DNA from: Candidatus Scalindua sp.
Lineage (GTDB): Bacteria; Planctomycetota; Brocadiia; Brocadiales; Scalinduaceae
Direction: 5' to 3'
Assembly: GCA_018670825.1 (NCBI GenBank)
Contig: JABHIW010000098.1
Coordinates: 1-64,000, forward strand
Length of the DNA stretch: 64,000 nt
Shown here: positions 4,252 to 11,568 of the stretch, one piece after another
Numbering within the stretch: position 1 is the stretch's first letter
Layout of the letters: every line of letters begins with the position of its first letter
Notes under the pieces: model-generated
The model's database searches: none
The model's input: only the letters and a program-made list of their open reading frames with translations
What the model was told of the DNA's origin: nothing
Made by a program: the position numbers and the translations under genes

Positions 4252-5025
4252 ATGTCATATACAATTGCAATGGCGGGAAAAGGTGGTACTGGCAAATCAA
4301 CCACAGCGACCCTGATAATACGTTATATCTCAGAGGAACTTGGTAAACCGGTTTTTGCAGTCGATGCTGACCCTAACTCAACTCTAGGATTATCACTAGG
4401 TGTTGAGGTTAAGAGTACAATTGCAGATATACGTGATGATGTAGTTGAAAAAAGGGCTGACATACCTGCAACCATGTCAAAAGACAGATACATTGAATAC
4501 AGAATAGAAGAAAGTATTGTTGAAGAAAACAAGTTTGATCTGCTGACAATGGGAAGGCCTGAGGGGCCAAAATGTTACTGCTATGCTAACAATCTGCTTC
4601 GAAAATATCTTGATAAGGCGGAACAGAGTTACCCTTACATTGTAATTGATACCGAAGCGGGAATGGAGCATCTGTCACGTAGGACCACTAATGATGTTGA
4701 TTTACTCATAATTGCATTTGAATCTACAATTATTGGCGTACATACCGCTAACAGGATAACTGAATTGATTGCAAGCCTGCCTATTAAAATAAAAAAGATA
4801 ATATACGTTATGTGCAAAGTGCCTGCAAAAGGAGTAAGTGAAAAGGTTAAAGCAGAAATTTCCAAATTCGGAATTGAAGTATCGGCAGAATTGCCATTTG
4901 ATGACGAAATATATGACCATATTACCTCCGGTGAATCACTGTTGGAAATAAGTACAGAAAATAGTGTTTATAATGAAATTAAGAATTTAATGGATAAAAG
5001 CATAGCAGTTACAACTGATAAATGA
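4252..5025 (+). CDS. CooC/AcsF-type nickel-insertion ATPase
   Basis: The 257-residue MinD/SIMIBI-class ATPase starts with a deviant Walker A motif, GKGGTGKSTT. It also has the CooC signature GPKCYCYANNLLR (Cys-x-Cys at about residue 107) and a Walker B-like VIDTEAGMEHLSRR. CooC-family proteins dimerise with ATP, bind Ni through the CxC pair and mature the C-cluster of CODH; AcsF does the same for the A-cluster. It starts four bases after acsV and is translationally close to it. Sequence alone does not separate CooC from AcsF, so no symbol is given. Its place inside the acs genes favours A-cluster maturation. Confidence 0.9.
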   Translation: MSYTIAMAGKGGTGKSTTATLIIRYISEELGKPVFAVDADPNSTLGLSLGVEVKSTIADIRDDVVEKRADIPATMSKDRYIEYRIEESIVEENKFDLLTMGRPEGPKCYCYANNLLRKYLDKAEQSYPYIVIDTEAGMEHLSRRTTNDVDLLIIAFESTIIGVHTANRITELIASLPIKIKKIIYVMCKVPAKGVSEKVKAEISKFGIEVSAELPFDDEIYDHITSGESLLEISTENSVYNEIKNLMDKSIAVTTDK

Positions 5026-5051
5026 TTACATTTTAGTTTGGAGATAAAATA

Positions 5052-6008
5052 ATGGAAATTGCAAATGTAGTAGACAAGTGGTCAGGAAACGTAAAAGAAG
5101 TTACTATCGGAGCAACCAAAGATGAAGGTGGTACCAGAGGCAAGACAGTAACAATAGGCGGCGCAAACTGTATTCCGTTTATGGATTTTGACGGAAGCCC
5201 TGGTCACAAGCCGGCAATTGCAATGGATGTATATGATACCCCACCAGAAGAGTGGCCAGAACCACTTTTGAAGCATTATGCGGACGTTATTGACAACCCA
5301 GCAAACTGGGCCAAAAAATGTGCTGAATTTGGTGCGGATTTAATCTGTCTGAAACTTGATGGCATACACCCTGATAAGGGAAATAGAAGCGCTGACGAGA
5401 CAGTAAGCACTGTCAAATCGATTCTAGAGGCTGTTGATATACCACTCATCATATGGGGATGTGAAAATGATGAGAGGGATAATGAAATAATGCCAAAGGT
5501 TAGTGAAGCCGCTAAAGGAGAGAAATGCCTTCTTGGAGGTGCCACTCAGGAAAATTACAAAACTATCACTGCCGTCAGTCTTGCAGACGGACACAACCTG
5601 ATAACGCAAGCACCTGTTGACATAAACATTGGAAAGCAGATAAACATCCTGGTAACTGATTTAGGATTTCCTACTGACAGAATTGTAATGTTCCAGACTA
5701 CCGGTGCGCTTGGATACGGTATTGAATATTGTTACTCAATTCATGAAAGAGGCAGAATGGCAGCACTGTCAGGAGACCACCAGATGGCAACACCGGTTAT
5801 TTGTGATGTTGGCCACGAAGCATGGCGTGCAAAGGAAGCAAAGGCCAGTGACAGCGAAGCTCCTCAATGGGGATCTTTTGCGGATAGAGGAATAATGTGG
5901 GAAGCAATTACCGCTACAACTTTAATGCAATCCGGTGTTGACATAATCAGGATGAACCATCCTGAAGCAGTTTCAATTGTGAAAAAACATATAGAAAATC
6001 TTACATAG
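5052..6008 (+). CDS. acsD: Corrinoid iron-sulfur protein small subunit
   Basis: The 318-residue protein is a TIM-barrel with the conserved segments of the CoFeSP delta subunit, including GGANCIPFMDFDGSPGHKP, ADLICLKLDGIHPD and FQTTGALGYGIEYCYSIHE. It pairs with AcsC, and the two barrels hold the B12 cofactor between them. The ATG is preceded by a GGAGA ribosome site 26 bases after the ATPase gene. The next gene, acsE, follows after 12 bases, so the two are almost certainly co-translated. Confidence 0.95.
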   Translation: MEIANVVDKWSGNVKEVTIGATKDEGGTRGKTVTIGGANCIPFMDFDGSPGHKPAIAMDVYDTPPEEWPEPLLKHYADVIDNPANWAKKCAEFGADLICLKLDGIHPDKGNRSADETVSTVKSILEAVDIPLIIWGCENDERDNEIMPKVSEAAKGEKCLLGGATQENYKTITAVSLADGHNLITQAPVDINIGKQINILVTDLGFPTDRIVMFQTTGALGYGIEYCYSIHERGRMAALSGDHQMATPVICDVGHEAWRAKEAKASDSEAPQWGSFADRGIMWEAITATTLMQSGVDIIRMNHPEAVSIVKKHIENLT

Positions 6009-6020
6009 AAGGAGAAGAAG

Positions 6021-6806
6021 ATGATAACCCTGGCAGAAAGAATTAATGGGCAGTTTCTGGATGTAAAGAAGGCTATTAAAGAAAGAGATCCCTCTGTAAT
6101 CCATGAATTAGCAAAAAAACAGACTGAAGCAGGAGCTACATATCTGGATATAAACGTTGGCACTGCTGCTGCGGACCAGGAGGATGCCATGAAATGGCTG
6201 GTAGAGTCAACACAGGAAGCGGTGAAGACACCTATTGCTATTGATAGCCAGAAATTGAGTGTTATTAAAGCAGGCCTTGAGGTAATCAAAAACGATGTTA
6301 TGATTAATTCTGCTCAAGGTGATCCTGAAGTTCTTGACACATATATGCAACTTGCAAAGGAGCATAATGCTGCTTTGATTTGTCTCACTATGAACAAGGA
6401 AGGTATACCTCAAAATGTAGATACTCGTATTGAGATAGCAGCTGAGATTGCCGGAAAAGCGTTGGAACATGATGTTGATATGGACAAAATCTTTATTGAC
6501 CCTATTTTGTTCTCAATACCAGTTGACCAGAAACAACCCGCTTATATGCTGGAAGTTTTTAATCAGATAAAACTTATCTCTGATCCCTCTCCACACATAA
6601 CTGTCGGTTTAAGCAATTTGGCTCAGGGAACACAGGAAAAGTCTTTAATATGCAGAACGTTCTTAACGATGGCAATTGCTGCGGGCATGGACACTGCACT
6701 CATGGATGTGCTTGATACCGAACTCATGGATGCTGCAATCTGCGCTGAAATGCTTCTGAATAAGCAGATTTACAGTGATTCATTTCTCAAAGCAGCAAGA
6801 GCATAA
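6021..6806 (+). CDS. acsE: Methyltetrahydrofolate:corrinoid iron-sulfur protein methyltransferase
   Basis: The 261-residue protein is a pterin-binding TIM barrel. Visible family segments are AGATYLDINVGT, PIAIDSQK, INSAQGD, DKIFIDPILF and TVGLSNLAQG, followed by a C-terminal DTALMDVLD block. AcsE moves the N5-methyl of methyl-tetrahydrofolate to Co(I) of CoFeSP, joining the methyl and carbonyl branches of the Wood-Ljungdahl pathway. It has a strong ribosome site (AAGGAGAAG) and is the last gene of the operon: a rho-independent terminator begins 33 bases past its stop. Length is typical. Confidence 0.95.
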   Translation: MITLAERINGQFLDVKKAIKERDPSVIHELAKKQTEAGATYLDINVGTAAADQEDAMKWLVESTQEAVKTPIAIDSQKLSVIKAGLEVIKNDVMINSAQGDPEVLDTYMQLAKEHNAALICLTMNKEGIPQNVDTRIEIAAEIAGKALEHDVDMDKIFIDPILFSIPVDQKQPAYMLEVFNQIKLISDPSPHITVGLSNLAQGTQEKSLICRTFLTMAIAAGMDTALMDVLDTELMDAAICAEMLLNKQIYSDSFLKAARA

Positions 6807-7457: not shown

Positions 7458-7832
7458 TCATTGCTTTGATCTGTATGTCAGATTTGCAACAATGTAGCCT
7501 CTGTCCTCTAATAAACGAACAACCTTCTTATTCGCTTTCTGTATATTTGAATAATCAGGTAACCAGAATTTTGTTGTGTCTATACCGCTTATTGTTTTGT
7601 TATTAGAATTTATATATATAGTCTTTCTTGTGGAATTCGTATCCTCATATTTGACCATAGTCATACCGTCGTTCGGATCGAAATCAATATCAACCCTTAA
7701 ATTCTCCTCTCGGTATATCTCACCCAAATTCTTTACTATATCGATTAAATTATCTAATGAATCGCTCTTTTGCATAATATTTGGGATTGTGGCTGTCGTT
7801 GGGTAGTCAAAACATACTCTGAACACAGACAT
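7458..7832 (-). CDS. Hypothetical protein downstream of the retropepsin-like gene
   Basis: I do not recognise this 124-residue soluble protein. It has alternating charged and beta-prone stretches (LRVDIDFDPNDGMTMVKYED, TRKTIYINSNNKTISGID) and a basic C-terminus. No signal peptide or membrane segment is seen. It starts 14 bases after the protease gene and is presumably co-transcribed. No ribosome site is clear in front of the start at 7832; Met20 would be a shorter alternative. Being paired with a small aspartic protease suggests a functional pair, but nothing in the sequence names the function. Confidence 0.55.
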   Translation of the reverse strand: MSVFRVCFDYPTTATIPNIMQKSDSLDNLIDIVKNLGEIYREENLRVDIDFDPNDGMTMVKYEDTNSTRKTIYINSNNKTISGIDTTKFWLPDYSNIQKANKKVVRLLEDRGYIVANLTYRSKQ

Positions 7833-7846
7833 ATATTGGCATTGTA

Positions 7847-8236
<390 letters not shown>

Positions 8237-9117: not shown

Positions 9118-9445
9118 TACAAATTATTTATTTTAGTTAGAATATTCGTTGATTTCTCTGTTCTTGGAAAAGGTATGATCGAGATTAACCAAGATCAATT
9201 TATTGGCGTAAATTTATCTATATCATAGTCATAAGTATTAGTCAAACCTTTAATTTCTGACAAATTTTATTTGCAATTATATATATATTTGATATAAATA
9301 TAGGATTCGTATTTTCATTTTCTGTTTTGAATTTAATTTGTATGACTCCTTCCAAGTTGCAAATTAGTGAAGTTGGTAATTTTGCAATACAATATATTTT
9401 ATAACTTTTAGCATTTACATTATTTATGAATTTGGAGCTAAGTTT
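9118..9445. other. Divergent intergenic region between kdsA and the TPR-alphaCTD gene
   Basis: This 328-base gap is very AT-rich and separates divergently transcribed genes, so both promoters should lie here. TA-rich stretches such as TATATATATATTTGATATAA near 9280-9300 could hold -10 elements, but no confident -35/-10 pair or conserved operator is visible. No open frame or hairpin of note was found. Confidence 0.5.
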
Positions 9446-10792
9446 ATGGTAAGTAGTGAGTTAGATTTAAATGAAGCACTTTCAACTGAACCGATGTCAA
9501 GAGAAAATATACTCTCGCTAAAAAATCAAATTTATACATCAAAAGCCAATTATGAAGAACTAGAAAACAAAATCAAGGAATTAAAGTCAACCATAAGCAC
9601 TGAAAAAGGCACTCCGGAGACGAAAAAAAATACTTTAATTTTAGGTATATGTTTATGGATATCAGGAAACCAGGCAGAGGCCTTTGAAGTACTTGCTACT
9701 GTACCATCCAGCAAATTTACCTGTTATTTTCTTGGAAAATGTCACCAGGAACGTGAAGAGTATGAAAAAGCACTGGATTACTTCGAACGAGCAAAACAAG
9801 CAAATGAAGAAGAGTTTGAAATACAAATAGATATAGCAGAAACACAAAGACTATCCGGAGACTATCAAGGTGCCTTAAAGTTGATCCAGAAATTATCTAA
9901 GGGACACGACAGCGAAGCCAGTCTTCACTATCAGTGGGCACACTGCCTTGATAACCTTGGAGAATATGAAGAGGCTTTGACACACTATAATCGCGCACTG
10001 GAAATTAATCCGGACCACACTAATTCGCTATTTCGACTTGCTTACTATTATGATCTAAACGGAGATGACGAAAACGCATTTGAGTACTATAAAAAATGTG
10101 TAGAGAACGCTCCGTTATACACCAATGCCATGCTTAATCTGGGTCTGCTATATGAAGACAATGATGATTATGAAAAAGCGATTTCCTATTATTATGCAGT
10201 TTTGCAATCATATCCGAACCATGAGACTGCAAGGCTTTTTCTAAAAGACGCAATAGCCGGTATGAATATGCTTTATGACGATGATAAGGTTAAGAAGCAG
10301 GATAAAGAAACCGAAGTATTAAACATTCCAATCTCAGATTTTGAACTTTCTGTTAGAAGTAAAAATTGTTTGGAACGCATGAATATACTAACACTGTTAG
10401 ACTTAACAAAAGTTACCGAGTTTGAACTATTATCATATAAAAATTTTGGAGAGACTTCTTTAACCGAAATAAAAAATATACTTAACCAGAAAGGGTTGCG
10501 CCTTGGACAGGCGGTTGAATCGGATTTATTTATTGATGCAGATACCAGTGGAAACGAAGACAACTTACCTAAAACCATTTCTGATATGGAACTTTCTGAT
10601 GAATGTAGGAATGCCATTGAAGAGATGGGTATTGAGACAATAAATGATTTGGCATCAAAAACAGAAATCGAACTTTTAGAGCGAGATAATTTTACGCAAG
10701 CATATGTCGATGAAATAATTAACCAACTGGATACGTTTGGATTAAAACTTCATAGCGGGAACAACGTAGGCGGAGTTGTTGATATAATTTAG
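9446..10792 (+). CDS. TPR protein with two RNA polymerase alpha-CTD-like domains
   Basis: The 448-residue protein has an N-terminal helical part, then about five TPR units (roughly 70-265, with ALDYFERAKQANEE, ALTHYNRALEINPD and AISYYYAVLQSYPN). Two domains homologous to the C-terminal domain of RNA polymerase alpha follow. The first (about 290-350) reads LSVRSKNCLERMNILTLLDL ... NFGETSLTEIKNIL. It keeps residues equivalent to E. coli Arg265, Asn268, Cys269, Gly296, Ser299 and Glu302, which contact UP-element DNA, and has Thr at Lys298. The second (about 375-440) is degenerate: Glu replaces Arg265 and Thr replaces Gly296. The genuine rpoA lies elsewhere. A role in transcription, recruiting partners through the TPRs, is inference. 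It stands alone upstream of ruvAB. Confidence 0.9.
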   Translation: MVSSELDLNEALSTEPMSRENILSLKNQIYTSKANYEELENKIKELKSTISTEKGTPETKKNTLILGICLWISGNQAEAFEVLATVPSSKFTCYFLGKCHQEREEYEKALDYFERAKQANEEEFEIQIDIAETQRLSGDYQGALKLIQKLSKGHDSEASLHYQWAHCLDNLGEYEEALTHYNRALEINPDHTNSLFRLAYYYDLNGDDENAFEYYKKCVENAPLYTNAMLNLGLLYEDNDDYEKAISYYYAVLQSYPNHETARLFLKDAIAGMNMLYDDDKVKKQDKETEVLNIPISDFELSVRSKNCLERMNILTLLDLTKVTEFELLSYKNFGETSLTEIKNILNQKGLRLGQAVESDLFIDADTSGNEDNLPKTISDMELSDECRNAIEEMGIETINDLASKTEIELLERDNFTQAYVDEIINQLDTFGLKLHSGNNVGGVVDII

Positions 10793-10980
10793 TATCAGGC
10801 CGCCTATTTGACAAATCTCATGAAACTTATGATGATCTTCATTAGTTAGCTTACCCACTCGTCTATTTAAATACATAAATTTTCCACATTTTTAAGTATA
10901 AAACAGTTCCAGTAATTTAACTGGCAAAACGTTGCCAATTTTGTATTTTTATTATAACAACTATATTTGACATTAGTTAA

Positions 10981-11568
10981 ATGTTTGATTTTATTTATGG
11001 TAATATAGCACACAAAACACCTACTACCGCAACAATTGAAACTAATGGTATAGGATATAAAATACATATACCACTATCAACTTTTGAGAAAATATCTAAT
11101 AAAGAAAGTACGAAATTATTCACAAAGCTTACTATTAGAGATGACGAAATAAAGATATATGGGTTTTTCTCATTAGAAGAAAGAAATCTGTTTAATTTGC
11201 TTCTTTCCGTAAATGGAGTTGGCTCTAATGTGGCGCTCACGATACTATCAAGTAGTTCAATTAGTCAATTTGGAAGCTATGTTGTCAGCAATGATTCGAA
11301 ATCATTACAGCGTATTAAGGGTATTGGTAAAAAAACGTCAGAAAGAATAATATTAGAATTGAAGGAAACTATAAAGTGCATTTTACCTGATTCAAAATCT
11401 TCGACAGATACAAAGAATACAGCAATAATTTCAGATGCGGTAATGGCGATGATTTCACTCGGATACGCAAAGCCTGAAGCGGAAAAGGCCGTGAATAAAG
11501 CTTCTGATAATGTTGATCCGACAGAAGGAATTGAAGTACTTATCAAAGAAGCCTTAAGTTGCGTATAA
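10981..11568 (+). CDS. ruvA: Holliday junction branch migration protein RuvA
   Basis: The 195-residue protein has the three RuvA domains: an OB-fold N-terminus (MFDFIYGNI...TIETNGIGYKIHIP), tandem helix-hairpin-helix motifs (LLSVNGVGSNVALTIL and LQRIKGIGKKTSERIILELK) and a short C-terminal three-helix domain (AVMAMISLGYAKPEAEKAV) that binds RuvB. RuvA tetramers grip the four-way junction and load RuvB hexamers. It lies 50 bases before ruvB on the same strand. No good ribosome site is visible. The resolvase gene ruvC is not in the window. Confidence 0.95.
   Translation: MFDFIYGNIAHKTPTTATIETNGIGYKIHIPLSTFEKISNKESTKLFTKLTIRDDEIKIYGFFSLEERNLFNLLLSVNGVGSNVALTILSSSSISQFGSYVVSNDSKSLQRIKGIGKKTSERIILELKETIKCILPDSKSSTDTKNTAIISDAVMAMISLGYAKPEAEKAVNKASDNVDPTEGIEVLIKEALSCV

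Follow-up and report, generated by a model that had tools for sequence, protein, structure and literature searches.

A TPR protein with two RNA polymerase alpha-CTD domains is conserved across Planctomycetota and may act in transcription

Introduction

The C-terminal domain of the RNA polymerase alpha subunit (alpha-CTD; PF03118, RNA_pol_A_CTD, RpoA residues ~249-329) is a main contact point of bacterial RNA polymerase with its regulators, and it is regarded as part of RpoA. We take the acids at alpha-CTD positions 259 and 261 to contact sigma, and C269, G296, S299 and E302 presumably belong to the same DNA-binding surface as R265 and N268. The last two residues are critical for DNA binding in E. 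coli, as established by experiment (PMC11434276). AfsR is a transcription factor that combines a TPR region with a DNA-binding domain (PMC10936776).

Here we describe TPR-CTD, a protein encoded in a 64,000-nucleotide stretch of DNA (the window) whose host, to judge from the named organisms nearest to it, is Candidatus Scalindua (Planctomycetota, Brocadiales). The first of its two alpha-CTDs, CTD1, resembles the RpoA domain in profile, predicted fold, DNA-contact residues and the acids at 259 and 261. Unlike RpoA, TPR-CTD lacks the alpha N-terminal domain, carries its two CTD copies on TPRs and is encoded apart from rpoA; residues K293 and E297 are also specific to CTD1. Like the AfsR-type SARP regulators, the protein is predicted to couple a TPR region to a DNA-binding domain. 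However, the DNA-binding domain of AfsR is of the SARP type and is accompanied by a NOD ATPase, and AfsR reaches RNA polymerase from outside, whereas TPR-CTD has neither domain and has borrowed the alpha-CTD itself. An alpha-CTD-like stretch outside RpoA is also found in NCBIfam NF005841 (PRK07758), a short hypothetical protein. CTD1 matches this model at 37.3 bits, against a cut-off of 115, and the model spans 95 positions with no TPR, in contrast to TPR-CTD.

We searched the literature for alpha-CTD with TPR, for Planctomycetes with alpha-CTD and for the Pfam name, and found no description of such a protein in the sources covered, which exclude most subscription journals. This agrees with an earlier note on the same DNA, which had suggested a kind of transcription factor not well described. 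The domain combination may well be annotated in databases already. The parts are known; what is apparently undescribed is a protein that joins them, occurs phylum-wide and has an invariant CTD1.

Results

The TPR-CTD gene occupies positions 9446..10792 of the window on the plus strand, where an open reading frame with an ATG start encodes 448 residues. About five TPRs are followed by a 33-residue helix and two RNA_pol_A_CTD domains. The TPR region, a series of helical pairs (residues ~57-259, 9614..10222), is covered by Pfam TPR families over residues ~57-260, with TPR_1 above its cut-off at 86 bits in 4 stretches, and it is modeled by AlphaFold2 with pLDDT values mostly of 80-96. The helix (residues 260-292, 10223..10321) leads from the last TPR into CTD1 and contains a motif, FLKDA...M.YDEE..K, that is kept phylum-wide. 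CTD1 itself lies at residues 284-347 (10295..10486), and a flexible linker (residues 357-374, 10514..10567; pLDDT < 50, dN/dS 0.19-0.34) separates it from CTD2 (residues ~369-429, 10550..10732), which is degenerate in the Scalindua lineage. All of these features are on the plus strand.

A profile search of the genome with PF03118, the check proposed in the earlier note, recovered both domains above the curated cut-off of 23.8 bits: CTD1 at 76.2 bits (E 6.5e-21) and CTD2 at 44.9 bits (E 4.1e-11). With the open reading frame and the TPR family matches, this confirms the earlier description of a TPR protein carrying two alpha-CTD-like domains. Apart from these two domains, PF03118 matches the genome only in the true rpoA, a separate and normal gene (G000:C141; locus L001). 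TPR-CTD is not an RpoA protein, scoring 107.9 bits against the TIGR02027 cut-off of 227.8, with a best stretch that covers model positions 217-297 only. An RpoA fragment or a misassembly is ruled out by the independent rpoA and by orthologues in ~80 families, and a generic HhH domain or chance match is ruled out by the PF03118 scores and the phylum-wide conservation.

We modeled the full-length protein with AlphaFold2 using 20 orthologues (mean pLDDT 81.6). The model begins with helices at the N-terminus and continues with about five pairs of TPR helices, the 260-292 helix, CTD1, the low-confidence linker and CTD2. CTD1 looks as if it is held on a rigid arm and CTD2 as if it is tethered flexibly, although in this single prediction (pTM 0.57) the relative placing of the domains is not fixed. 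Modeling the CTD tandem on its own gave pLDDT blocks of 81-89 for both domains. When this tandem was compared with solved structures using Foldseek, its nearest neighbors were RNA polymerase alpha-CTDs, with TMt up to 0.93. The matches include the Caulobacter alpha-CTD bound to AT-rich DNA (9zum) and the E. coli domain in complexes with CAP and DNA (1lb2 and 3n4m) and with sigma region 4 and UP DNA (3n97). Each alignment spans one domain-sized stretch at 40-50% identity, mostly CTD1; the predicted fold of CTD2 rests on its profile match and on a matching order of helices in the model. By profile and predicted fold, both domains are alpha-CTDs and not generic HhH units, in support of the earlier note.

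TPR-CTD is near-universal across the sampled Planctomycetota, and its architecture is kept throughout the phylum. Strong matches (E <= 1e-24) were found in 287 of 292 genomes; the five without one (G081, G137, G206, G220 and G280) are all multi-contig drafts, and G137 still has three PF03118 matches. At least three PF03118 matches, corresponding to rpoA plus two, are present in 114 of the 118 genomes screened with that profile. Of 59 genomes related at order level or closer, 58 contain an orthologue, and the exception (G008, 79% complete) has TPR matches only. The class-level search gave the same picture, except for a few matches that were weak or partial. Two low-scoring loci, L096 and L104, are rpoA and were left out. 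Phage, plasmid and viral contig collections yielded no full-length relative, which argues against a phage or plasmid origin.

Such a distribution, with two DNA-binding-type domains in most members, would also suit a nucleoid-associated protein, a general binder of AT-rich DNA that shapes the condensed planctomycete nucleoid and does not act in initiation. We consider this very unlikely, because the sigma-contact acids are kept and some members have one CTD only.

We then compared CTD1 across 81 orthologues using E. coli numbering. R265, N268, C269, N294, G296, S299 and E302 are present in all 81, as are K293, F295, E297 and T298. The earlier note had pointed out Arg265, Asn268, Cys269, Gly296, Ser299 and Glu302 in the Scalindua protein, and we find them both there and in every orthologue. 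Acids also occupy position 259 (D in 92%, E in 7%) and position 261 (E in 98%). Over 62 columns, distant members share a mean pairwise identity of 0.73 in CTD1, compared with 0.61 in the RpoA alpha-CTD and 0.47 in CTD2. In comparisons between Scalindua species, CTD1 has the lowest dN/dS (0.05-0.09), followed by the TPRs (0.08-0.11) and CTD2 (0.18-0.32). CTD1 is under strong purifying selection, and it is missing from none of the full-length members examined.

CTD1 differs from the RpoA of the same phylum on the DNA-facing loop. E297 is found in every CTD1, whereas 92% of RpoA sequences have K297, and most CTD1 domains have S or A at position 291, where RpoA has K291. K293 and E297 form a signature of CTD1 as read from the alignment, with E297 a charge reversal. 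These differences indicate that CTD1 is a distinct, fixed variant that was not copied recently from rpoA. In a tree built from 119 domains, CTD1, CTD2 and the RpoA CTDs form three separate groups (SH-aLRT 88, 68 and 94), although the support is weak at 62 columns. This topology is consistent with a single origin for each before the phylum radiated.

Replacement of K297 and K291 leaves the DNA-facing loop less positive. CTD1 could therefore be a decoy or hub that mainly binds the partners of the RpoA alpha-CTD (sigma region 4, activators and NusA-like factors), titrating or relaying them, with DNA binding secondary or absent. The conserved acids at 259 and 261 fit this model, as does the fact that a single working CTD suffices in several genera. 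We nevertheless regard it as unlikely, since invariance of R265, N268, C269, G296 and S299 in 81 of 81 orthologues would be unexpected for a domain with no role on DNA.

In the Scalindua protein, CTD2 (LSDECRNAIEEM...NFTQAYVDEI) carries R265E, C269A, G296T and S299Y, and retains N268 and E302. By R265E and G296T it lacks the DNA-contact set that CTD1 preserves. The earlier note had reported loss of Arg265 and Gly296 from the second domain; this is correct for Scalindua, where E and T stand in their place, but it does not extend to the family. In a wider sample of 46 CTD2 domains, six of them from Brocadiales, R265 and E302 are each present in 46/46, G296 in 40/46 and S299 in 39/46. Within the Brocadiales set, R265 is kept in 22 of 35 CTD2 domains. 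Five genomes in three genera have no CTD2 at all, and a sixth (G021, locus L146) has a long acidic Asp/Glu tail in its place. By sequence comparison, a decayed or missing CTD2 characterizes Scalindua and its fellow Brocadiales, and not the whole family.

The gene directly downstream of TPR-CTD in the window is ruvA (10981..11568, plus strand). Defining direct adjacency as same strand with a gap <= 250 bp, we found ruvA immediately downstream in 22 of 38 distant loci and in 15 of 20 near relatives. Upstream neighbors vary. The whole cluster in Brocadiales comprises TPR-CTD, ruvA, ruvB, queH, spoIID and tgt. The spacing between TPR-CTD and ruvA is often < 60 bp in distant members. In Scalindua, by comparison, the gap is 188 bp (10793-10980) and includes a weak hairpin resembling a terminator (10922-10937), so co-transcription of the two genes is less certain there. 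Three loci of one Brocadiales group (L051, L052 and L053) have 600-750 bp between TPR-CTD and a divergent ruvA. TPR-CTD does not replace RuvC at the usual operon position: RuvC is encoded elsewhere in 55 of 59 genomes, including the host genome.

This gene order raises the possibility that TPR-CTD is a DNA-repair accessory working with RuvA, in which the CTDs would hold DNA and the TPRs would hold RuvAB or the replication machinery. Direct linkage to ruvA and retention of the cluster in Brocadiales speak for such a role, but 16 of the 38 distant loci lack ruvA in the directly downstream position, and spoIID (5) or tgt (2), both members of the same Brocadiales cluster, follow in some of them. 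The order ruvA-ruvB-queA-tgt is old and widespread in bacteria, and synteny with ruvA may therefore be passive. The domains are also alpha-CTDs by profile, and do not belong to the HhH families of repair proteins. We judge a repair function improbable.

Upstream of TPR-CTD, the intergenic region shared with kdsA contains an unusually conserved block (9210..9304) that is present in single copy in the genome. Most loci of the family show 83-95% identity over this block, which is traceable further, though more weakly. We read it as back-to-back promoters, with the putative kdsA promoter on the minus strand (TTGACT 9245-9240, 17-bp spacer, TATAGA 9222-9217) and the putative TPR-CTD promoter on the plus strand (TTGCAA 9271-9276, 16-bp spacer, TATAAA 9293-9298). 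The two putative -35 elements are separated by ~25 AT-rich bp, which the divergent promoters would share as an upstream stretch. This reading is comparative, and a promoter consensus scan listed neither promoter in the block. The kdsA half is not seen in Brocadia (L049) or in L050, both of which lack an adjacent kdsA. A small RNA or repeat was rejected, because the block has no credible Rfam match and is single copy. An obvious first candidate for a DNA target of TPR-CTD, including in autoregulation, is the AT-rich stretch, and the block offers a useful view of sigma-70-type promoters in anammox bacteria.

Further upstream, the window encodes a small protein (7847-8233, minus strand) with an ADTGS motif like that of clan AA (retropepsin-type) aspartic proteases, adjoining a conserved hypothetical protein of ~124 residues (7458-7832). 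At 4252-6806 lie a CooC-like ATPase and two genes resembling an acetyl-CoA synthase (Wood-Ljungdahl) subunit and a methyltransferase.

Discussion

We favor, with little better than even confidence, a model in which TPR-CTD is a phylum-wide transcription factor of Planctomycetota that offers an alpha-CTD in trans. The architecture, predicted fold, conservation, distribution and gene order are established here, and to these the model adds, by inference, DNA binding, contact with RNA polymerase, a partner for the TPRs and an effect at promoters. CTD1, joined by its long helix to the TPR superhelix, would bind the minor groove of AT-rich DNA upstream of promoters, in the manner of the RpoA alpha-CTD, and would meet sigma region 4 together with regulators and activators that read the alpha-CTD. 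The TPRs would bind a recruiting partner, either RNA polymerase or a regulator; because TPR conservation falls largely at structural positions, no partner site could be named. For most of the phylum, CTD2 on its flexible linker would serve as another module for binding DNA, and its decay or loss in Brocadiales would mean that one working CTD is enough there. At promoters the outcome could be activation, competition with the RpoA CTD or bridging of regulators, and sequence cannot decide among these.

This role in trans is supported, at the level of sequence, by the invariant DNA-contact residues and sigma-facing acids of CTD1, its identity above that of the RpoA alpha-CTD and its low dN/dS. Further support comes from the PF03118 scores, the alpha-CTDs as nearest solved folds, the distribution, the three-group tree and the retention of R265 in CTD2 of the wider sample. 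On the other side, the less positive loop means that the affinity or target of CTD1 may differ, and the conserved gene order, with a recombination gene and not a transcription gene, counts against the model.

A broader version, which we hold only as a tentative possibility, is that TPR-CTD is a general and possibly essential factor. It would then supply an auxiliary alpha-CTD unit in trans at many promoters, where alpha-CTDs beyond the two of RpoA would be at hand, and regulators would read mainly CTD1 in place of the RpoA CTD.

Planctomycetota thus carry a phylum-wide extra alpha-CTD on a separate scaffold, more strictly conserved than RpoA's own. A role in transcription is open to direct test in the genetically tractable Planctopirus limnophila. 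If TPR-CTD is active in transcription, Planctomycetota, anammox bacteria included, would recognize and activate promoters in ways that differ from textbook models.
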